A stretch of 58,823 bases of DNA from Prevotella sp. (GTDB taxonomy: Bacteria; Bacteroidota; Bacteroidia; Bacteroidales; Bacteroidaceae): assembly GCA_017618275.1 (NCBI GenBank), contig JAFZUS010000033.1, positions 1 to 58,823 of the forward strand, in the 5' to 3' direction. Below are positions 214-58,301 of this stretch, one piece after another (position 1 is the stretch's first letter; each line of letters starts with the position of its first letter). The notes under the pieces are model-generated. The model had not been told where the DNA came from. It was given only the letters and a program-made list of their open reading frames with translations, and searched no databases. Made by a program: the position numbers and the translations under genes.

Positions 214-1470
214 ATGAAGACCAAGTTCTACCTTGACAGGAGGACGCAGCCGAAAGCACTCGTTCCTGACACCGCCGACATAGAGCCTTCCTTCCCCGTC
301 AAGGTCGCAATCCATCACGGAGGCAGTGCTTCGTACATCTCCACGGGCGTATCCGTTCCTGCCTCCCAATGGCTTTCCAAACCCTCGCCCGGTCAGGTAG
401 TCGGACACCCTCGCAAGGAAGCACTCAATATCAAGTTGTCGGAAAAGAAGTTGGAAGTTGACAAGGCGTTGGAGGAACTGCGTCTCGCAGGGGAGTTGAA
501 AGGTCTCTCCGTGTCGGAAATCAAGGCGAAGGTGGAACGGAGGCTTGAATGGAAGGCGTGGGGGACTGACGGGAAGGAGTGCCCCGTGCTTGTTTGCTTT
601 GAGAGATTCATCGCCACCAAGTCCCGTGCAGGCACAGTCAAGGTGTATCGTGAAACAGTGAAGAAGTTACAGGCGTATGAAGGATTCAGGGACGGGATGA
701 CTTTCTTTTCCATCACTCCCTCTTGGCTCTCCGCCTTTGACCGTTGGCTCTCCCTTACCTCTCCGAGTGCCAACGCAAGGGGCGTCTATCTGCGTTGCAT
801 ACGGGCTGTGTTCAACTATGCCCTGTCGGAAGAACTGACGGAAGCCCCTTACCCTTTCAAGAAATTCAAAATCAAGACAGACTTGACGAAGGACAGGAGC
901 CTTACGCCGGAAGAGATACGGGCATTGAGGGAAGCCCCGTGCAACCCTGCTAACGAGAAGTACAGAGACCTGTTCCTCCTTTCTTTCTGCCTATGTGGGA
1001 TGAACTTAGAAGATATCTTGGATGCCGTCCCGCCGAAAGGGGGAAGGATTGAGAAGCGGAGGATAAAGACGGGACAGCCCCTCTCCATAAGGATAGAGCC
1101 GGAAGCACAGGCAATCATAGACAAGTACAAGGGCAAGGACAGACTTGTAGATGTTCTCGGAAAGTGCGCCAACTACGACAACTTCAAGCACAGGGAGAAC
1201 AACGCCCTCAAAAAGATAGGGAGCACCTACAATGAAAGCACACGGGAGTGGGAGGGCGACCCTCTCTTCCCTGACCTCTCCTTCTACTATGCCCGTTACG
1301 CTTGGGCTACCATAGCCGCAGGGCTTGACATACCGGAAAGGACTATCGGTATGGCGATGGGGCACGGGACGGCACGGAGCGTCACTTCTATCTACATGAG
1401 GGTTGATATGAGGCGAAAGATAGACGAGGCGAACAGGAAAGTCCTTGACAAATGTTTCAAAAATTTGTAA
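214..1470 (+). CDS. int: Tyrosine recombinase, phage integrase
   Basis: A 418-residue site-specific recombinase that would insert and excise the phage at tRNA-Val. The N-terminal third is an arm-binding and SAM-like region; the catalytic domain fills the C-terminal half. Visible catalytic residues are Arg about 361 (in YYARYAWAT), His about 384 (in MAMGHG) and the nucleophile Tyr about 394 (in SIYM). The first catalytic arginine box reads CGMNLEDIL, with no arginine at the usual place; related Bacteroides integrases such as IntDOT also lack it. The start is preceded by GCATCACATT, the leader repeated before many genes here. The gene is alone between its own promoter and a terminator at 1527. 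Confidence 0.95.
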   Translation: MKTKFYLDRRTQPKALVPDTADIEPSFPVKVAIHHGGSASYISTGVSVPASQWLSKPSPGQVVGHPRKEALNIKLSEKKLEVDKALEELRLAGELKGLSVSEIKAKVERRLEWKAWGTDGKECPVLVCFERFIATKSRAGTVKVYRETVKKLQAYEGFRDGMTFFSITPSWLSAFDRWLSLTSPSANARGVYLRCIRAVFNYALSEELTEAPYPFKKFKIKTDLTKDRSLTPEEIRALREAPCNPANEKYRDLFLLSFCLCGMNLEDILDAVPPKGGRIEKRRIKTGQPLSIRIEPEAQAIIDKYKGKDRLVDVLGKCANYDNFKHRENNALKKIGSTYNESTREWEGDPLFPDLSFYYARYAWATIAAGLDIPERTIGMAMGHGTARSVTSIYMRVDMRRKIDEANRKVLDKCFKNL

Positions 1471-46464: not shown

Positions 46465-47364
46465 ATGGCACAGAACAATATTTATCAAATGGTCACCGAC
46501 CGAATCATAGAACAGATGGAAAAGGGCATCATTCCTTGGCAGAAGCCTTGGGTGGGCGGAACAGGAATGGCAATCTCCTACACTTCCCGTAAGCCCTATT
46601 CACTTCTCAATCAGTTCCTTCTCGGAAGGCCGGGCGAATGGCTCACTTGGAAGCAGATATATGGCATGGGCGGCAAGGTCAAGAAGGGAGCCAAGTCCCG
46701 TTTCGTGGTATTCTACTCTTGGATAGATGAAAAGGACGAGCAGGGCAATCCAATCGCAGACGAGAACGGACGCATCAAGCAATACCCTATCCTCCGTTGG
46801 TATCAGGTTTTCCACCTTTCCGATACGGAAGGCATTGATTCAAAGTTGGAGACGGTAGTTCCCAACCCGGACATCCAACCCATTGAGGTAGCTGACAAGG
46901 TCATCACCGATTATGTAGAAAGGGAAGGGAAGGCAACGGGCTTCCGCTTCTGTAACGACACCGAATCAGGCGAGGCTTACTATTCCCCTTCGGAGGACAA
47001 GGTAGTAGTTCCGATGCTCACCCAGTATGAGATACCCGAAGAATACTACTCAACCACCTTCCACGAACTCACCCACTCCACGATGCACGAGAAGAGGTGC
47101 GACAGAAAGGCCGAAAGCAAGACCTTCTCTTCAAGGGGTGAAAGTTACTCCCGTGAGGAACTGGTCGCCGAACTGGGAGCCGCTATGATATGCAACAGAA
47201 TCGGGATTGAGGCAGAAAAGGCCTTCAAGAACTCAGCCGCTTACATCCAGCACTGGATGAAAGCATTGAAGAATGACACTAAGATGATAGTTTGGGCTTC
47301 GGGCAAGGCCGAGAAGGCAGCGAAATACATCCTTAACGAATCTGATAGTAACGAAACCAATTAA
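46465..47364 (+). CDS. ardC: ArdC-type antirestriction protein
   Basis: 299 residues. N-terminal ArdC single-strand-DNA-binding domain: YQMVTDRIIEQMEKGIIPWQ, KPWVGG and LTWKQIYGMGGKVKKG. C-terminal zincin-like metallopeptidase domain: STTFHELTHSTMH (HELTH at 200-204) with the likely third ligand in SREELVAELGA. ArdC proteins of plasmids and phages protect incoming DNA from type I or other restriction enzymes. The gene follows a GC hairpin and the ACATCACATT start leader. Confidence 0.9.
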   Translation: MAQNNIYQMVTDRIIEQMEKGIIPWQKPWVGGTGMAISYTSRKPYSLLNQFLLGRPGEWLTWKQIYGMGGKVKKGAKSRFVVFYSWIDEKDEQGNPIADENGRIKQYPILRWYQVFHLSDTEGIDSKLETVVPNPDIQPIEVADKVITDYVEREGKATGFRFCNDTESGEAYYSPSEDKVVVPMLTQYEIPEEYYSTTFHELTHSTMHEKRCDRKAESKTFSSRGESYSREELVAELGAAMICNRIGIEAEKAFKNSAAYIQHWMKALKNDTKMIVWASGKAEKAAKYILNESDSNETN

Positions 47365-50467: not shown

Positions 50468-50704
50468 ATGGAGAAAATCATACAAGACTATATCAAGAAA
50501 ACGGGAGCGAAGGGAGCCACGCTTCTTTCGGTCTCTGAAAAATACGGAGAGGTGTATGACCTGCAATACGGTGGCGAGGGTGATGACGGATTGCTCCTGC
50601 CTACGGGCCTCCCCGTCCTTGTTTATGTGAAAGGTGGGAAAGTGACGGTCCTCCCGGAAAAGGAAGCCTTCGCCTTATTGTCCCTTCTTGATGATGCGGC
50701 CTGA
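50468..50704 (+). CDS. Small acidic protein opposing the MuF-toxin gene; candidate immunity protein
   Basis: 78 residues, acidic, mixed fold: helix MEKIIQDYIKKTG, strands TLLSVSEKYGEVYDLQYGG and LPVLVYVKGGKVTVLPEKE, helix EAFALLSLLDDAA. It has its own promoter and nearly leaderless start, unlike its neighbours, and ends inside the 3' end of the convergent MuF-papain gene (30-bp overlap). Immunity proteins of MuF toxins are encoded next to the toxin end and must be made in lysogeny; the setting fits. There is no sequence proof. Confidence 0.6.
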   Translation: MEKIIQDYIKKTGAKGATLLSVSEKYGEVYDLQYGGEGDDGLLLPTGLPVLVYVKGGKVTVLPEKEAFALLSLLDDAA

Positions 50705-52378
50705 CACATCAGGGTTTATCTTCTTGTCATCTATACGGATGATGCTGATTTTACTCTTCTCTATAATATCCATAGGGAATACTCTTATCTTTCCCGTCTG
50801 AGGGTCAAAGTACCCGATTGTTCCGTCACTGCCAGCCTCGGCAAGGAAAACATGGGCGGTTTTACTTCCAGACCATTTGACATATATTTCATAGCGACCG
50901 GCACCGTTTATCTTCTCCGCTATGTACTCCTTCACCCTCTTCTCCGTCATGTTCTTGTACCCCTTGTCACGCATCCAAGCGTCAGGGTACTGGTGCTTCT
51001 CATAAGAGCCGTCCTCTCGGATATACCTCTTCTGCCAATCAAACTTCTTGAAGTAATCGGCATCGAAAGGTTCCGCTTCCACATCAAAGCCCCTGCGTCT
51101 CAGTTCGTGGACAACCGTACAGGTCTGGCAGTTGTTGTTGTATCCGTCATTCACTCCACTCTGCCAATGAGGATTCTCCTTGCCCGTATTGGCATCCTCC
51201 CAACTCATAGGAGCACCCTTCTTCACTCCGAGCGCTTTCTCTATGTCGGAGTCAATATCTTCCTTGTTCACAATATCCTCCCAAGTGTCCCTGTTGTCTT
51301 TCAGGAAGTAAGGAAGCGTGCCCCGTTCCTCGGCGGCCTGTATCCTGTCGGCGTTCCTCTCTACCCAGTCCGTGTAGTTCGGGGGCATTTCCGTTATCTT
51401 GCCACTTAACTCATAGGAAGACTCCCCGTTCTCGTCCATGTTGACGAGGTACTTGGCAAACTCGTCCTTGTCAGGGAGTATGGTAGTCACATAGCATCGG
51501 CAGTTAGGGTGCCATCCCGTGAACTTGAAATCCTTTGGATAGTCCCCTTGGAGTTCATCGCAGATGTCAAAGAAAGGCACTGGCTCTCCCTTTGAATTGA
51601 GGCAAGTGTGATTCTTTGAGAGGTTGATGCGTATTCCGAGGATGAAGTCAAGTTGCTGGTTGCGTTGGTAGTCGGCACTACGGTAAGCCATGTTCGTCTC
51701 CGTGGATGCAAGACGCTTGGCATTCTTGTAAGAGGAACGGTACACGCCCTGTCCGGGGTGGTAGTTGGATGCGCTCTTGGAGAGGCGAAGCACCCCTTTC
51801 TCATCCCTCACCCGCCTGTATAACCTGTCCGGCTCACGGAGGTAGCCACGCACCTGACGGGAGAGTTTGTCAGCACTCAGTCCCTCACCGAGCCCCAAGT
51901 CAAGTGCCAGTTCAAGGTCGCCCTTCATCCCTTTGGTGTAATCCCACACCTTGCTTGAAAGGCTCATTCCTCCTATCCTCCTGTCCTCAAAGGCTTCAAG
52001 TGCGGGGAGATTCTTCTGATTCCACCTTGCAATGGCTTCCGAAGGCACACGGCCTGCACCTATGCTCCTGACGAGGCGTGAGACCATGTCGTCATTCTTC
52101 ATATTGGATAAATCCCAAGACCATTCGATACCTGTCACTATGTTTCCGAACAGGGAGTTAGAAAGCCCTGCCAGAATCCCGTCCACCGCATTTGAGAGGG
52201 CTGGATAATTTTTGAAGAAGAAGTCTTCCTGTGCATTGAGATTGGAAACGGAGGAAAGGAGAAGGGTACGGCGGACTATCTGCCCGACGGAAGTGTCAAT
52301 AAGTTTGTCTATTGATTGCATCTGCCGGGCGAGATAAGCCGTAAGTCGCCGCTCGTATGGCTTGGGATTGTATCTCAT
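50675..52378 (-). CDS. MuF-type minor head protein with C-terminal papain-like toxin domain
   Basis: 567 residues. Residues 1-330 are the phage head morphogenesis (MuF/SPP1 gp7) part with RLASTETNMAYRSADYQRNQ and the Cys-rich GWHPNCRCYVTTIL. A linker leads to a C-terminal domain at about 400-545 with papain-like marks: NNNCQTC (Cys417 or 420), the typical VVHELRRRGFDVEAEPF, His509 in TAHVFLAE and Asp525 in YFDPQTG. Such Tox-PL-type domains occur in MuF polymorphic toxins of temperate phages. Expected: carried in the head and perhaps delivered with DNA. The next gene upstream is the portal. Confidence 0.8.
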   Translation of the reverse strand: MRYNPKPYERRLTAYLARQMQSIDKLIDTSVGQIVRRTLLLSSVSNLNAQEDFFFKNYPALSNAVDGILAGLSNSLFGNIVTGIEWSWDLSNMKNDDMVSRLVRSIGAGRVPSEAIARWNQKNLPALEAFEDRRIGGMSLSSKVWDYTKGMKGDLELALDLGLGEGLSADKLSRQVRGYLREPDRLYRRVRDEKGVLRLSKSASNYHPGQGVYRSSYKNAKRLASTETNMAYRSADYQRNQQLDFILGIRINLSKNHTCLNSKGEPVPFFDICDELQGDYPKDFKFTGWHPNCRCYVTTILPDKDEFAKYLVNMDENGESSYELSGKITEMPPNYTDWVERNADRIQAAEERGTLPYFLKDNRDTWEDIVNKEDIDSDIEKALGVKKGAPMSWEDANTGKENPHWQSGVNDGYNNNCQTCTVVHELRRRGFDVEAEPFDADYFKKFDWQKRYIREDGSYEKHQYPDAWMRDKGYKNMTEKRVKEYIAEKINGAGRYEIYVKWSGSKTAHVFLAEAGSDGTIGYFDPQTGKIRVFPMDIIEKSKISIIRIDDKKINPDVSGRIIKKGQ

Positions 52379-52390
52379 ATATCAGATTCG

Positions 52391-53842
52391 CTATTCTGCC
52401 ATGGCTCCCGCAAGGAGGTCTTGCATACCCTCGGCCTGAATCTTCTGTAACTCGTCGTCCACATCGTCCACCATTCCGAGTTTCTGGATAGCGGTGCTCT
52501 GGGACATCAGTTGCTTGCCTCCTGTGGCGTTTATGTAGATATTGAGGTCTTCCGCGTCGCTCTTGACGGTGTACGGGGTGATGACCTGCTCAACGGGGAG
52601 TGCGTCAATGTCGCTGGCGTAGTCCGAAGGGAGCATTATCTTCAAGTAGGCCTTGATGACATTGGTCTCCCTCTCAAAGAACTCAATCCACCTTCCGCTC
52701 TCATCCTTCACTTTCAGGTGGCAGTCTATGAAGAGTTGCTTCCTCGCCTCACCGCTCATGGGCGTGGTCTTCATGTTCTCATAGGACATATCTGGCAACT
52801 GTAACTGTGTGAAGAACATCTGACGGAGTTCGTTCACATAGTATTTGAGGTTGTCTATCGCCTGATTCCAAGTGACATACTGGAGCGAGGAGCCCTGCGG
52901 GTACTGTACCACATCCCTGAACGCCTTGTCGGTGGAAGGAGACTTGCCGAAAGCCATTTCCTCGTTCACGAAAGCGGCGAGGATAGGACGGCTGTTCTTG
53001 CGAAGGTAGTTTCCGTTCCTGCTGACCGCCCATTCCATTTCATACACAAGGCTTGAAGTGTTCTCCCATATAGGGACGGGGCGGTATATGTACACGGCTG
53101 GTATCTTGCCTATCTCAATGTCCTCGTCAAGGTCGAGCGTCATTGAAACGCTTTCCTCGTTGCTCCAACGGAGGTGCTTGTTGGAGGTGTAGGTGTCAAA
53201 GAAGGTCACATCCTTCTCTTCTACCTTGCGGGTGTACTTGACTGACAGGGCAACGAGGTCTCCGAGTTCGTCGAAGAGGGGATAGAGGGAGTCGCCCTGC
53301 ATAGGGGAGTAGGTGACACAGCGGAGTTTCAGTTTGCTGTTGAAGCCGTACACGCTGTTCTCTTCCGGGATGGCATACCATAGCGTCATGGTCTCACAGG
53401 AAGCGAAAAGTTTGCGTCCCCTGTCGTTGTTTACGGTATCAATGTGGTTACGCTGGTATATCTTTTCAATATACTGTGCAATCTCCTTCTGTCGGTCGTT
53501 CTCCGGCGAATAAATCCTCTTGACGGGGATTCCGAAGCACAGTTCGGTAGTCCTCTTGACAGCGAGGTCCTGTAAGGCGTAGGTCACGCGGCTCACTTTC
53601 TCCACGCCTGTCGCTACCTTCGTGATGACTGGCTCTCCGAACTCGTTTTTCATCGATTCCGATTCCCTCTCTTCATAGACCGTGATGTCGGGGTATTCGC
53701 TCTTGTCCATCACGGGGTGCAACATAGGGTCGTACTGCTTCACCAAGTCGCCCCAAGGGGGTACGGTGATGGACTTCTGCTGTAACTGTCCTATCACATT
53801 CTCCCCGTTCTCTGCTTTGCTGATAATTTCCTGAATATCCAT
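52391..53842 (-). CDS. Portal protein
   Basis: 483 residues of the SPP1-like portal family. Marks: early PPWGDLVKQYDPMLHPV, KRTTELCFGIPVKRIYSP, then SLYPLFDELGDLVALSVKY and an insertion of Tyr/Val strands, a central helix (NLKYYVNELRQMFFTQLQLP) leading to MKTTPMSGEARKQLF, and an acidic C-terminus. The dodecameric portal is the DNA entrance of the head and binds the terminase. It is placed between TerL and MuF as usual. Confidence 0.85.
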   Translation of the reverse strand: MDIQEIISKAENGENVIGQLQQKSITVPPWGDLVKQYDPMLHPVMDKSEYPDITVYEERESESMKNEFGEPVITKVATGVEKVSRVTYALQDLAVKRTTELCFGIPVKRIYSPENDRQKEIAQYIEKIYQRNHIDTVNNDRGRKLFASCETMTLWYAIPEENSVYGFNSKLKLRCVTYSPMQGDSLYPLFDELGDLVALSVKYTRKVEEKDVTFFDTYTSNKHLRWSNEESVSMTLDLDEDIEIGKIPAVYIYRPVPIWENTSSLVYEMEWAVSRNGNYLRKNSRPILAAFVNEEMAFGKSPSTDKAFRDVVQYPQGSSLQYVTWNQAIDNLKYYVNELRQMFFTQLQLPDMSYENMKTTPMSGEARKQLFIDCHLKVKDESGRWIEFFERETNVIKAYLKIMLPSDYASDIDALPVEQVITPYTVKSDAEDLNIYINATGGKQLMSQSTAIQKLGMVDDVDDELQKIQAEGMQDLLAGAMAE

Positions 53843-53898
53843 AGTCGTAAGTTTAGTTTAAGGTCGTATCATTTTTAAAGATGCAACTAGTCGCATTT

Positions 53899-56043
53899 TT
53901 AGTATGCTATGTTTGAAAGTCTTGTCAGGTCCACTGGCTTCGGTCTGCCCCCGAGTATCTTCATGAGCACGACATAACGGACGGCGTCGATGCAATTATG
54001 CACGACTATCCCGTTTGCTATGTACTCATGCTTTCCTTTTACGGTAAGGTCAAAGACCTCCGCATCAGGCATCTCCGTTGCGGCTATGTCTAATAGCACA
54101 GCTTCTTGAACAATGCCTCGTCCGTGAATACTTGTTGACGACAAACTCCTTTCCGCACCATTCGCATATCCTCGTTTCGTTGTCAATTCCTGAATTTGCT
54201 CTTGCCCTTGACTTGCATTTATTGGAACAGAACTTGGCATCCGGTTTTTTTGACCAGAATTCCGTTCCGCAATATTGGCAGATAAGTTTCTTTGGTTGAA
54301 GGTTTCTTGCGACCTCTTTCCCGTGTTCAGAATGCCATTTCCTTCCTTCTTCGCTTCCATGCCAGGCACTTGCTTTCTCTCGGACTCGTTTAAGATGGGC
54401 GATTTGCTCAGGACTGCTTGCCCTTGCTGATGTTCTTTCGTGGTGTCTCGCTTTGTGCTCTTTTTGAGTAAGGCACTCAAGGTTTGAAATGTCGTTGTTA
54501 AGGCTGTTGAAATCCTTGTGATGAATCTCATACCCTTGTGGGACTGGACCGTTGTAGTATTCCCACACGACGATGTGGAGCCGTTTATTCCCTTTTGAAT
54601 AATACCTTTCTCCTTTATGCTTGAAGTATGTCTCTCCGTTGAATTCAACCCTGTCTTGGCACTTTGATTTCCGGGTAGGATATACAGTATGTCTCCCGGT
54701 TGTAGGTTTCTTATTTCCTTCCATCCTTCCTTTGTTTTTATTTTATGGTCCGGCGTACACCTAACCTCGGTGATAAAATTATTAAAAAGAAGTCGGAACT
54801 TAAAATTTTTCTTTATGCCATTGTTGTGATTTTCAAGCACTTGCCTATAACCAACGGAAGTCAGCACAAGGTCGCCCCGCTTGACATTCTTGATGAATTT
54901 CCTCCCTCTATCAGTAACAACCTTTGTATTCCCTACAAAACAGTGATTAAACGCATCTATAGGTTGATTCATCCACTTGCCTTCCTTGTCCTGAGCCCAA
55001 GTGTAATTCTTGAACTCCTTGATGCAGTTCGCACTCCGCTTTGTTATCCGTATCTTGTATTCAAGCATCTTCGTGATGCCCGCCATCACCGAGCCGCCGT
55101 ACTTCACCACGGGCTTCACATTGCACCCGCCCCTGTATATTTCCTGTATCAGTCGTGGGTCAGCCGATTCCGTTATGGTCTCTATCGTCCCGTCATTCTC
55201 TTTGAGGACCTTAATGATGTCGGTTGAGAGCATGGCAGTGCTGTAACATATCTCTTCAAGATAGAGGGTACCGTCGTGAAAGTACACGTCCACTATGGCC
55301 GTTGGGTCGGCCGAATAGCCGAAGTCCATCCCACGCCAATGGTGCTTCTTGGCGTAGGGAGGTATCTCGTCTATGATTTCCACATTCGTGAAGATGAGCC
55401 CTTCGATGACCGCCTGCAATCCGAGGCCGTACACCTGCCACAAAGTATTGTTCTTGTACCGCAGGCTTTCAATCTCGTCTATGATTGTCTGCTCCAAGAA
55501 GGGATTGTCCTTGTAGGTGGTTATGAAGTGGTAGGTGCGGGGGTCGTGGTTTACGCTACAAAGCCAGTGGTCATCCGAGAAGGAAGGGTTGTAGTCTGCT
55601 ATCGTGAACATCGTGGTACGCATCTTTAACTGCTGCCATTCAAGGGCTGACAATTCGTTCGCCTCGTTCACATAGCAGATGTCCCTCTTTCGTCCGCGTA
55701 GTTTCTGTTCATCGTCGGTAGAGAAGAACTCTATCCAACTCCCGTTCGGAAATTCAAATGTGAACTCCGACTTGTTGAACGCCCTGTTTTTCCAGTTCCA
55801 CAGATTCATCTTGACGAGGACTTCCTTGAAGTCTATGAGTACCGAGCCCCTGAGTGCCGTCAGCGTCTTCCTCACCACCGACAACCTTATGTCAGGGTGA
55901 TTCATCAGATAGACACATAGCCAGATGACCGTGTTCCTTGTCTTTCCGCTACGGGAAGAGCCTTGTTCAGATATGGTGGTATATCCTGACCTGACGGCGT
56001 TGTCAAGTTCATAATATACTTTCGTAGTCTGAATCTTAGGCAT
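53899..56043 (-). CDS. terL: Terminase large subunit precursor interrupted by an intein
   Basis: 714 residues before splicing. ATPase part: Walker A GSSRSGKT (28-35) and Walker B DICYVNEANE (121-130). Nuclease part: WRGMDFGYSADPTAI with the first acidic residue and TESADPRLIQEI. Residues 368-683 are an intein, inserted between NH and CIDAVRY, the last conserved acidic motif of the nuclease. Removed, the mature protein would be 398 residues, short but normal for this family. The C-terminal part is 31 residues (684-714). Splicing would be needed for an active packaging motor. Confidence 0.9.
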   Translation of the reverse strand: MPKIQTTKVYYELDNAVRSGYTTISEQGSSRSGKTRNTVIWLCVYLMNHPDIRLSVVRKTLTALRGSVLIDFKEVLVKMNLWNWKNRAFNKSEFTFEFPNGSWIEFFSTDDEQKLRGRKRDICYVNEANELSALEWQQLKMRTTMFTIADYNPSFSDDHWLCSVNHDPRTYHFITTYKDNPFLEQTIIDEIESLRYKNNTLWQVYGLGLQAVIEGLIFTNVEIIDEIPPYAKKHHWRGMDFGYSADPTAIVDVYFHDGTLYLEEICYSTAMLSTDIIKVLKENDGTIETITESADPRLIQEIYRGGCNVKPVVKYGGSVMAGITKMLEYKIRITKRSANCIKEFKNYTWAQDKEGKWMNQPIDAFNHCFVGNTKVVTDRGRKFIKNVKRGDLVLTSVGYRQVLENHNNGIKKNFKFRLLFNNFITEVRCTPDHKIKTKEGWKEIRNLQPGDILYILPGNQSAKTGLNSTERHTSSIKEKGIIQKGINGSTSSCGNTTTVQSHKGMRFITRISTALTTTFQTLSALLKKSTKRDTTKEHQQGQAVLSKSPILNESERKQVPGMEAKKEGNGILNTGKRSQETFNQRNLSANIAERNSGQKNRMPSSVPINASQGQEQIQELTTKRGYANGAERSLSSTSIHGRGIVQEAVLLDIAATEMPDAEVFDLTVKGKHEYIANGIVVHNCIDAVRYVVLMKILGGRPKPVDLTRLSNIAY
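53995..54942 (-). other. Intein in TerL, with a foreign frame in its middle
   Basis: 316 residues (368-683 of the precursor). Block A: CFVGNTKVVTDRG with catalytic Cys368. Block B: TEVRCTPDHKIKTKEG, with the conserved Thr and His. Block F: AEVFDLTVKGKHEYIAN. Block G: GIVVHN followed by Cys684, so first Cys, penultimate His682, terminal Asn683 and the +1 Cys are all present. Between blocks B and F there is no LAGLIDADG or in-frame HNH domain, only a Ser/Thr/Gln/Lys-rich low-complexity run of about 200 residues, which is the out-of-frame reading of the HNH gene at 54065-54724. Confidence 0.9.
54065..54724 (-). CDS. HNH homing endonuclease, overprinted on the intein
   Basis: 219 residues, read in another frame than TerL. 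Its ATG overlaps the third base of codon 440 (block B) and its TGA falls in codon 660, just before block F. HNH core: GYEIHHKDFNSLNNDISNLE with CLTQKEHKARHH following, and Trp-rich start LHIVVWEYYNGPVPQGY. Two zinc knuckles follow: CQYCGTEF...CSNKC and CEWCGKEF...CSRSC. Upstream, TAAAATAAAAACAAAGGAAGG could load ribosomes. Codon frame of both proteins is open throughout. It would cut TerL alleles lacking the intein and start homing. Confidence 0.85.
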   Translation of the reverse strand: MEGNKKPTTGRHTVYPTRKSKCQDRVEFNGETYFKHKGERYYSKGNKRLHIVVWEYYNGPVPQGYEIHHKDFNSLNNDISNLECLTQKEHKARHHERTSARASSPEQIAHLKRVREKASAWHGSEEGRKWHSEHGKEVARNLQPKKLICQYCGTEFWSKKPDAKFCSNKCKSRARANSGIDNETRICEWCGKEFVVNKYSRTRHCSRSCAIRHSRNGDA

Positions 56044-56058
56044 CCTCTCTTTCCCCCT

Positions 56059-56349
56059 TTATTTCACCGCATCGACGGCTATGACTCCCGTAAGGTGTAC
56101 CTTTCCGTCTGCGTCCTTAGTCGTCTGAATGACCTTCTTATGGTCCAAGAAAAGCCTCATGGCGATAGACTCTATCACCGCCTTCTCAGCCTCGGTCACT
56201 GTCACTGTCTTGTGGCACACCCTGTTCTTCATTATGCCTTTCCCTGCGTAGGCGCAATGTATGTCCACCGTGTCAGTGAGCCTTGAATCTCCCTTGTCGT
56301 AAGTGCAGGTTATCCCTATGGGCTTCGCCCTGAAATTGAACTTGCTCAT
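56059..56349 (-). CDS. Hypothetical protein in the packaging operon
   Basis: 96 residues, beta-rich: FRAKPIGITCTYDKGDSRLT, HKTVTVTEAEKAVIESIAMR and TTKDADGKVHLTGVIAVDAV. Four cysteines in the first half (TCTY, HCAY, VCHK). Role unknown; lies between terL and the DnaA-like gene. Confidence 0.6.
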   Translation of the reverse strand: MSKFNFRAKPIGITCTYDKGDSRLTDTVDIHCAYAGKGIMKNRVCHKTVTVTEAEKAVIESIAMRLFLDHKKVIQTTKDADGKVHLTGVIAVDAVK

Positions 56350-57173: not shown

Positions 57174-58301
57174 TTAGGTCAGTTTTTCAAGTAGTTCCTT
57201 CACCATCTCCTTTGCCTTGACTATGGTGTCGTCCATGTCAAGGTACTGGAATAGTCCGAGCCGTCCCCCGAAATGCAGTGTCGCATCCTCCTTCGCCAAC
57301 TCTTTGTATGACTCATAAAGTGCGGCGTTCCTCTCGTCCACGATGGGGTAGTATGGCTCGTTCCCGTCCTTGTAGGGTATGGGATATTCAAGGGTGATGA
57401 CGGAAGACTCGTATTTCTTCCCCGTCCTGTCAAAGTGCATGTGCTCTATGGAACGGGTGTAACGGATGTTCCTGTCGGTCCAGTTCATCACGGCGCAACC
57501 CTGATGGTCTCCACGGAAGTACAGCGTCTCGAAGCGGAGCGACCTGTATTCAAGCCTTCCGAGCTTATAGCCGAAGAACTCGTCTATCGGTCCCGTGTAT
57601 ATGGTGTGCTTCGCCACCTCCGCGTATTTCTCCCTTTCTTTGAGGTAGTCCACTCCGAGGCGCACTTCAACCCCTTCAAGGAGTCTTTCAAAGAGGGGAG
57701 TCCATCCGCATGCAGGTATTCCTATGAATCGGTCGTTGTAGTAGGTGTTGTCATAGGTGAATCGCACGGGAAGGCGCTTTATGATTTCAGGGGGGAGTTC
57801 CGAGCATTTCTTCCCCCACTGCTTCTCCGTGTAGCCCTTTATGAGCCTTTCGAAGACCGTAGTCCCCACGAGGCTTATGGCCTGCTCTTCAAGGTTTCTC
57901 GGTGTCCCCTTGACTGCCTTCCTCTCGGCCTCTATCCTCTCCTTCGCCTCCGTAGGGGAGAATATCTTAAACAGTTGTGCGAAGGTGTTCATGTTGAAGG
58001 GGAGGTTGAAGGCCTCTCCTTGGCTGACCGCTATCGGAGTATAGTCCGGAGCCGGCTGGATTTGCACCTTTTCAGCCACATAGCGCCACACATCCTCGTC
58101 GTCTGTATGGAATATATGGGGGCCGTACTTATGGACCACCACGCCGTTCTCTTCGCCCGTGTAGCAGTTGCCCCCTATGGTGTCCCTCCTGTCTATGACG
58201 AGCACTCCAAATCCAGCGTCAGCGAGTTCCCTCGCACAGACAGCCCCATAGAGCCCTGCCCCTACTATCAAAAAGTCGTATGTCTTCTTGCTTTCCATCA
58301 T
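57174..58301 (-). CDS. glf: UDP-galactopyranose mutase
   Basis: 375 residues, normal length. FAD-binding start DFLIVGAGLYGAVCARELAD, then DRRDTIGGNCYTGEENG, the family signature VVHKYGPHIFHTDDEDVW, and EKQWGKKCSELPPEI with following RLPVRFTYDNTYYNDRF. The enzyme converts UDP-galactopyranose to UDP-galactofuranose, the donor for galactofuranose-containing glycans. It lies in the phage packaging operon between the partial gene and terS, an unusual place, coupled to the gene upstream by ATGA. Two glycosyltransferase genes lie 17 kb away. Likely acts in host glycan or virion modification. Confidence 0.85.
   Translation of the reverse strand: MMESKKTYDFLIVGAGLYGAVCARELADAGFGVLVIDRRDTIGGNCYTGEENGVVVHKYGPHIFHTDDEDVWRYVAEKVQIQPAPDYTPIAVSQGEAFNLPFNMNTFAQLFKIFSPTEAKERIEAERKAVKGTPRNLEEQAISLVGTTVFERLIKGYTEKQWGKKCSELPPEIIKRLPVRFTYDNTYYNDRFIGIPACGWTPLFERLLEGVEVRLGVDYLKEREKYAEVAKHTIYTGPIDEFFGYKLGRLEYRSLRFETLYFRGDHQGCAVMNWTDRNIRYTRSIEHMHFDRTGKKYESSVITLEYPIPYKDGNEPYYPIVDERNAALYESYKELAKEDATLHFGGRLGLFQYLDMDDTIVKAKEMVKELLEKLT

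Follow-up and report, generated by a model that had tools for sequence, protein, structure and literature searches.

The 58,823-nucleotide (nt) contig JAFZUS010000033.1 of a Prevotella sp. draft genome (assembly GCA_017618275.1), the whole of which is referred to here as the window, carries on its reverse strand a gene for the large terminase subunit (terL) that is interrupted by an intein, and within the intein coding sequence lies a second gene, in a different reading frame, for an HNH protein. An initial annotation made from the sequence alone had described a complete terL intein with Cys368, His682-Asn683 and Cys684, together with a 219-residue HNH gene in another frame; the residues were correctly called, 53995-54942 is exactly the extent of the intein, and the HNH gene was recovered as an open reading frame (ORF) with a strong HNH_3 match. 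We consider it quite probable that the locus is an overlapping HNH homing endonuclease gene, with its own start, inside a class-1 type intein of the TerL nuclease motif. Its parts are as follows.

53899-56043 (-): terL with contiguous intein, 714 residues; ORF without internal stop, with Pfam and NCBIfam matches
54943-56043 (-): N-extein, terL residues 1-367, ending in ...DAFNH; ORF, Pfam
53995-54942 (-): intein, terL residues 368-683 (Cys1 to Asn316), 316 residues, with Cys+1 next
54673-54942 (-): N-terminal splicing half (blocks A and B), confident Hint fold in an AlphaFold2 (AF2) model
54121-54657 (-): intein-frame linker across the HNH gene, mostly disordered save one helix; AF2 model residues 101-279
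53995-54117 (-): C-terminal splicing half (blocks F and G; HN before Cys+1); AF2 and intein_Cterm, 4.4e-8
53902-53994 (-): C-extein, CIDAVRY..., terL residues 684-714
54065-54724 (-): HNH endonuclease gene, 219 residues, in a frame that differs from that of terL
54452-54583 (-): HNH_3 catalytic domain, HNH residues 48-91; Pfam, 3.7e-18
54215-54280 (-): CxxC zinc-binding region 1 (C149, C152, C166, C170), invariant in 17 alignment rows of nested relatives (defined below)
54098-54166 (-): CxxC zinc-binding region 2 (C187, C190, C205, C209), by eye from the alignment; missing from shorter nested relatives
54722-54733 (-): HNH start codon and purine run AAAGGAAGG; K-E-G-W of block B in the intein frame

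Pfam places Terminase_3 at terL residues 28-208 and Terminase_3C at 240-368, with an Intein_splicing match (2.9e-11), while NCBIfam places intein_Cterm at residues 662-684 and an intein_Nterm match, under its cut-off, from residue 368. Class-1 inteins are characterized by Cys, Ser or Thr at position 1, TxxH in block B, block F, His-Asn in block G and Cys, Ser or Thr at position +1. The window intein displays Cys368, TPDH in block B, HEYIANG, His682-Asn683 and Cys684, and columns C6, T68, H71 and N321 of the intein alignment (A3) are invariant. The DAFNH at the end of the N-extein we take, from its position and sequence, to be the TerL nuclease motif. The HNH gene fills the slot between blocks B and F: its ATG combines the final A of codon 440 (GGA) with the TG that opens codon 441 (TGG), the Gly-Trp of block B, and its TGA straddles codons 659-660, in agreement with the initial placement of the start at codon 440 and of the stop just before block F at codon 660. 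As had also been claimed, the intein frame has no stop across the HNH gene, so the host frame is uninterrupted between the two halves, unlike that of a split intein.

An AF2 model of the intein (328 residues, from an alignment of 40 rows) contains two confident beta-rich blocks, at approximately residues 11-90 (block means 94-98) and 281-320 (93-98), and a middle with values of 38-47 save for a helix at residues 137-178 (block means 51-79). In this prediction, the intein frame over the HNH gene appears as a mostly disordered linker between Hint halves. Foldseek matches the intein model best to the gp41-1 intein and also to DnaB inteins, with an E-value of 1.6e-7 for 6qaz, and a profile search concurs. 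The HNH model has a predicted local distance difference test (pLDDT) score of 88.9; only residues 1-17, encoded across the end of the N-terminal splicing half, fall below 50 and are disordered. A sequence-profile search of solved structures with the HNH returned just a zinc-finger chain (E 0.0048).

Distribution of the arrangement and selection on the two frames

Viral contigs were searched for relatives with three queries, the HNH protein (41 loci), an alignment of intein C-terminal ends, A1 (the best 80 of 316 confirmed loci), and an alignment of nested HNH proteins, A2 (the best 80 of 539 loci); genome contigs contributed 20 loci, and 13 of the 172 phage records with an HNH match were analysed. 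The resulting 231 records (230 loci and the window) were classified with profiles for the HNH and for the intein C-terminal end. An HNH domain score of at least 70 was found in 191 of the 231, giving 132 representatives at 95% identity, the window included; an unfiltered nested count of 161 held at least seven low-score partial matches, which were removed by score.

The HNH gene is nested in 98 of the 132 representatives, that is, the host frame around it is unbroken and includes the intein C-terminal half, and one further case (L204) looks nested, with both intein halves seen by eye and the C-terminal half missed by A1. Thirteen representatives have a separate ORF for the C-terminal half downstream of the HNH gene, 12 of them with an ORF for terL and the N-terminal intein half (IntN) upstream (the exception is L143), and 20 are free-standing. 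All scripted overlaps of the HNH gene with the ORF of the C-terminal half share one phase. The database search for out-of-frame HNH genes in inteins that the initial annotation had proposed gives 98 dereplicated nested cases, the window among them, and an HNH in frame with an intein appeared in none of the 231 records classified with the A1 and A2 profiles. A sequencing error that had put the HNH gene out of frame does not fit the data, because the identical phase recurs in independent records. The overprinted arrangement is, at the level of sequence, widespread and phase-locked and no isolated event. When loci were chosen by their intein C-terminal end (the A1 scan), 72 of 80 were nested, a share biased upward because A1 was built from nested loci; six had an intein signal without an HNH, one a separate C-terminal half and one an HNH below the score limit.

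Nested cases include Tetrasphaera phage TJE1, Acinetobacter phage Highwayman and Rhodobacteraceae phage LS06-2018-MD07, in each of which a single terL coding sequence is annotated over the intein/HNH pair, as well as Bacteriophage sp. MT838676. Another (L231) lies in a genome from the window's own family, where 20 of 399 genomes have a terL match, the window's own included. A terL in genome G177 (L243) has an intein-like junction at the P-loop (THN/SGKS, with the slash at the junction), and its nuclease motif is without an intein where the related terL of L231 has one. By iterative profile, 92 of the 98 nested hosts are homologous to the window terL; the others are L017, a truncated record, and L160, L170, L174, L194 and L208, which are presumably TerL from their motifs. 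Insertion sites lie in or next to the putative nuclease motif at several neighbouring places (NH/CIDAxRY in the window, DHA/CDALRY, NHYIDA/CRYA and others), the motif in these hosts being assigned from position and sequence. Among the 40 phage records listed of the 905 that match the terL protein, just 2 matches run past residue 369 through the intein, which indicates that related terL genes do without it.

Expected stops were obtained by shuffling synonymous codons within each gene. In the 98 nested HNH genes (window included), the intein frame has 0 stops against 232.0 expected, a zero that is partly circular as the nested class is defined as stop-free; hence the weight rests on the bimodal stop counts and the third-frame control. 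Among the 111 HNH genes with a same-strand intein C-terminal half detected, host-frame stops number 0 in 98 and 3-11 in 13, with none at 1 or 2, and the third frame of the 98 nested genes holds 1878 stops against 1881.9 expected. The 33 non-nested genes (20 free-standing and 13 with a separate C-terminal half, L204 excluded) have 201 stops against 198.9 expected in the used phase and 575 against 595.4 in the other. These relatives thus average approximately 6 stops per gene in the used phase and 17 in the other, so that only the used phase would be easily tolerated, and this can explain why a single phase is seen. Methionine followed by a codon starting with A, which gives TGA in the intein frame, occurs at 0 of 195 Met in the nested genes and at 44 of 98 in the non-nested ones; a class defined as stop-free necessarily gives zero, and the 44 of 98 elsewhere shows the cost. 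Over 20,000 random re-codings of the window HNH protein with the window's codon usage, stops averaged 5.4 in the intein frame, which was free of them in 0.07%, and 16.9 in the third frame, which was free of them in none.

It had been proposed initially that selection has probably kept both frames, which holds for openness and not for sequence. In 25 of 25 pairs that share no representative (HNH identity 55-97%), compared by counts of differences and identities, the HNH frame surpasses the intein frame in amino-acid identity. Per codon, 0.24, 0.20 and 0.40 differences fall on HNH positions 1, 2 and 3, and since the third HNH position is the second position of an intein codon, the commonest changes alter an intein-frame residue. 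By these comparisons the intein frame is kept open but not kept in sequence, whereas the HNH frame is conserved as protein. The residues expected of both activities are intact in the nested set: Cys1 is present in 97, TxxH in 96 and [HS]N in 95 of 98, and HH..N with at least one CxxC in all 98 HNH frames. Across 17 nested rows, each sharing 35-46% identity with the window HNH, residues H68, H69, N77, H90, C149, C152, C166 and C170 of the HNH do not vary.

Neighbouring states, translation and alternative explanations

Several other states of the same site or family are found. Mini-inteins of 133 residues (L059, L068 and L075) occupy the same terL site without an HNH, block B running straight into block F, and 2 of 3 keep an ATG or GTG across the Trp codon; L058 matches L059 across the intein, and L078 is another mini-intein. 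Free-standing HNH relatives adjoin terL or the small-subunit gene terS in seven phage records (PAE1, SN1, FBPa53, EauM-23, Shemara, BP10 and Poludnitsa), and an eighth free-standing case (L048) comes from a record without annotation. Lactobacillus phage CL2 has its HNH between IntN and the C-terminal half (IntC). In EauM-23 (L047, Exiguobacterium phage vB_EauM-23), and perhaps in L155 and L189, terL is apparently broken at the same motif beside a free HNH, with neither a recognisable intein nor an Rfam intron. L031 and L032 have split intein halves in another gene, with a C part that is SNF2-like by eye, and the ORF between the halves of L031 matches DUF559. A single origin of nesting was rejected on a quick tree, in which 57 forks are open; it requires a minimum of 11 switches into or out of the nested state, and starred branches force 4 of these. 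As for the initial proposal that a free-standing HNH gene invaded a mini-intein, which accepted the other frame as a linker, the intact intein, the out-of-frame HNH and the linker are borne out, and entry into a mini-intein, rather than mini-inteins arising through HNH loss, is plausible as the order of events.

The position of the free-standing relatives beside terL or terS would also suit a packaging accessory lodged in terL that is no homing enzyme, comparable with the HNH beside the terminase of HK97, which acts with terminase at cos according to the available part of PMC10448857. We regard this as unlikely. Of the 132 representatives, 99 have the HNH within an intein and 12 have it flanked by the two intein halves, mini-inteins without an HNH occupy the same site, diverged terL genes (L063/L076) have an intein in common, and, from the listed matches given above, related terL genes manage without the intein.

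A start codon is present in 97 of the 98 nested HNH genes (first candidate ATG in 85, GTG in 8 and TTG in 4). Programmed -1 frameshifting from the intein frame would instead yield a TerL-IntN-HNH fusion and no separate protein; the HNH frame is indeed the -1 frame of the host, and in the window it opens 18 nt before the ATG. Across the 97 genes with a start, however, the HNH frame extends at most 6 nt upstream of the first start in 32 and at most 18 nt in 73, and 4 of the 97 have a canonical slippery heptamer in the correct register. Frameshifting is accordingly judged improbable, and internal initiation is favoured because start codons are frequent, the upstream opening is short and slippery heptamers are rare. 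A start overlaps a host TGG codon in 82 of 98 (35 as GGATGG); in the window's clade this codon encodes the near-invariant Trp of block B. A start on the Trp codon was rejected as a general rule, since outside the GW clade the TGG overlap may just reflect second codons starting with G.

Sequence identities bear on mobility. In L063/L076, the intein is 93-96% nucleotide-identical across both splicing halves and the overprinted middle, against 67% for the terL extein, one clear case of an intein shared by diverged terL genes, and 139 of 172 non-independent pairs have an overprinted middle more similar than the extein by at least 10 points. The pattern is consistent with lateral movement of the whole element, and is no proof of active homing. 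In L010/L019, the splicing halves are 99-100% DNA-identical and the overprinted middle 88%, as if the HNH segment had been exchanged or were evolving faster.

That the HNH or the intein is dead, with a frame open by chance, is very unlikely. With the window gene's own codons shuffled, an open frame is nothing unusual (P0 = 0.41, open in 41% of permutations), but this neutral reading does not account for the deficit of stops in the 98 genes against the matched third-frame control, for the invariant HNH residues in the 17 nested rows or for splicing residues kept in 95-97 of 98. Finally, a self-splicing intron can be dismissed almost entirely: HNH genes are often found in group I introns (PMC11855218, in the part available), yet the Hint fold and splice residues are intact and the frame is unbroken. 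Rfam gave one sub-threshold small RNA match and no intron over 53800-56200 (Rfam may miss divergent phage introns), no gathering match to a group I intron in 20 relative loci, and no intron among 7 weak matches in a permissive search of 4 of those 20.

Besides the partial circularity of the zero stop count, several observations count against an overlapping homing endonuclease gene. The window gene alone is non-significant under the within-gene codon permutation that gives the P0 above, and with re-coding at 0.07% the chance of 1e-4 to 1e-5 initially put on its openness was too strong for one gene; its codon use may already be adapted. Non-nested genes can also be open, with 0 host-phase stops within the profile match in 2 of 33 (L046 and L054) and 0 third-frame stops in 1 of 33 (L045). 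The HNH model has no significant Foldseek match (best I-HmuI, E 0.13). The start region is A-rich with purines and has no clean Shine-Dalgarno at ideal spacing; a clean Shine-Dalgarno was rejected as a candidate, the upstream run being purine-rich in the window and not uniform among relatives. In some pairs (L055/L061 and L010/L019) the overprinted middle has diverged further than terL, which means that not every pair points to recent transfer. Of the 129 inner branches of the tree 27 are starred, a weak support that makes the number of nesting origins uncertain.

For the overlapping endonuclease gene, we infer the following course from the sequences. The ribosome translating TerL would read the HNH region as a mostly disordered linker between two Hint halves, and the intein would excise itself from the TerL precursor. 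A second initiation, at the ATG within the GGA TGG of block B, would give a separate 219-residue HNH protein, which may cut intein-less terL alleles, repair then copying the whole intein. Selection would act on the HNH frame as protein and on the intein frame merely to keep it stop-free. Because two proteins seem to be encoded in overlapping frames, splicing and homing could differ in amount and evolve apart. Out-of-frame entry might even be a general route by which endonuclease genes colonise inteins, with a start codon supplied by block B and one tolerable phase, a suggestion that we would place a little short of an even chance. If true, such colonisation would allow collaborative homing with inteins to be traced directly, along with how homing inteins and split inteins arose. 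The same HNH family is found at one terL motif as free-standing neighbour, in split inteins and in overprinted inteins, and HNH-less mini-inteins occur there too; the conserved TerL motif therefore offers a natural series of free HNH beside intein-less terL, mini-intein, split intein and overprinted intein. The nested genes also form a large, statistically clean set of overlapping phage genes.

The surrounding genes place the locus in a tailed phage or prophage within a draft genome of 3.6 Mb, as terL is flanked by matches to a portal protein (phrog_64), a head-morphogenesis protein and, weakly, a terminase small subunit, with a tape-measure match further along. No second HNH copy was found in this draft genome. 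The following features were also observed in the window.

50675-52378 (-): head-morphogenesis protein whose C-terminal part carries a Gln_amidase papain-fold toxin 1 domain (residues 415-530, 1.9e-12), matching PHROG 16625
57174-58301 (-): gene for a UDP-galactopyranose mutase (PF03275), immediately upstream of the terminase genes
46465-47364 (+): ArdC-like antirestriction protein; polyvalent-protein metallopeptidase domain
214-1470 (+): phage-integrase-like protein (Phage_int_SAM_5), near the contig start
1-60: resembles a tRNA 3' end by eye; ARAGORN detects no complete tRNA

The integrase-like gene beside a tRNA-like contig start suggests a prophage at a tRNA.

Comparison with known systems

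In textbook homing inteins the nuclease is fused to the splicing domain, in frame. Full-length inteins are likewise described as carrying an in-frame endonuclease domain in the available part of PMC11855218. The window element resembles them in its Hint domain and in having the endonuclease in the slot between blocks B and F, but differs in that the endonuclease lies in another frame with its own start and stop. Fractured genes, associated with Dassa et al. in 2009, reportedly have a split intein whose halves are separated by a free-standing endonuclease gene. As in those genes, by that account, the endonuclease here would be translated separately from the intein, and 12 relatives have the order terL-IntN, HNH and IntC-terL; unlike in fractured genes, the intein frame of the window is continuous, and splicing would be in cis.

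In collaborative homing, the endonuclease of a free-standing gene nearby joins a splicing element at the cut site, as described for introns in the accessible text of PMC2988022 and PMC10448857. As far as those descriptions go, the present case resembles this arrangement and differs in that the partner is an intein and the end state is overprinted. Fractured genes with split inteins and collaborative homing match other states of this HNH family. Inteins in the large terminase are also known from mycobacteriophages (Kelley et al. 2016, PMC5050341, in the part available); the window intein is likewise in the large terminase, where it interrupts the C-terminal nuclease part.

No publication on an out-of-frame HNH inside an intein surfaced in a search of limited coverage, from which we claim no absence; a preprint by Gosselin et al. 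(2025), whose title points to actinobacteriophage inteins of non-canonical architecture, may describe overlaps. The nearest published case found is the ShiLan domain, for which the accessible portion of PMC11855218 describes an HNH in the 'third frame' of a methylase, with no splicing domain and an insert proposed to stay in the methylase; another methylase with an out-of-frame HNH appears in the available part of PMC12613952. ShiLan and terL thus have in common an out-of-frame HNH insertion. Unlike in ShiLan, as described there, a complete Hint intein surrounds the HNH here, and it does so in TerL and in many phages.

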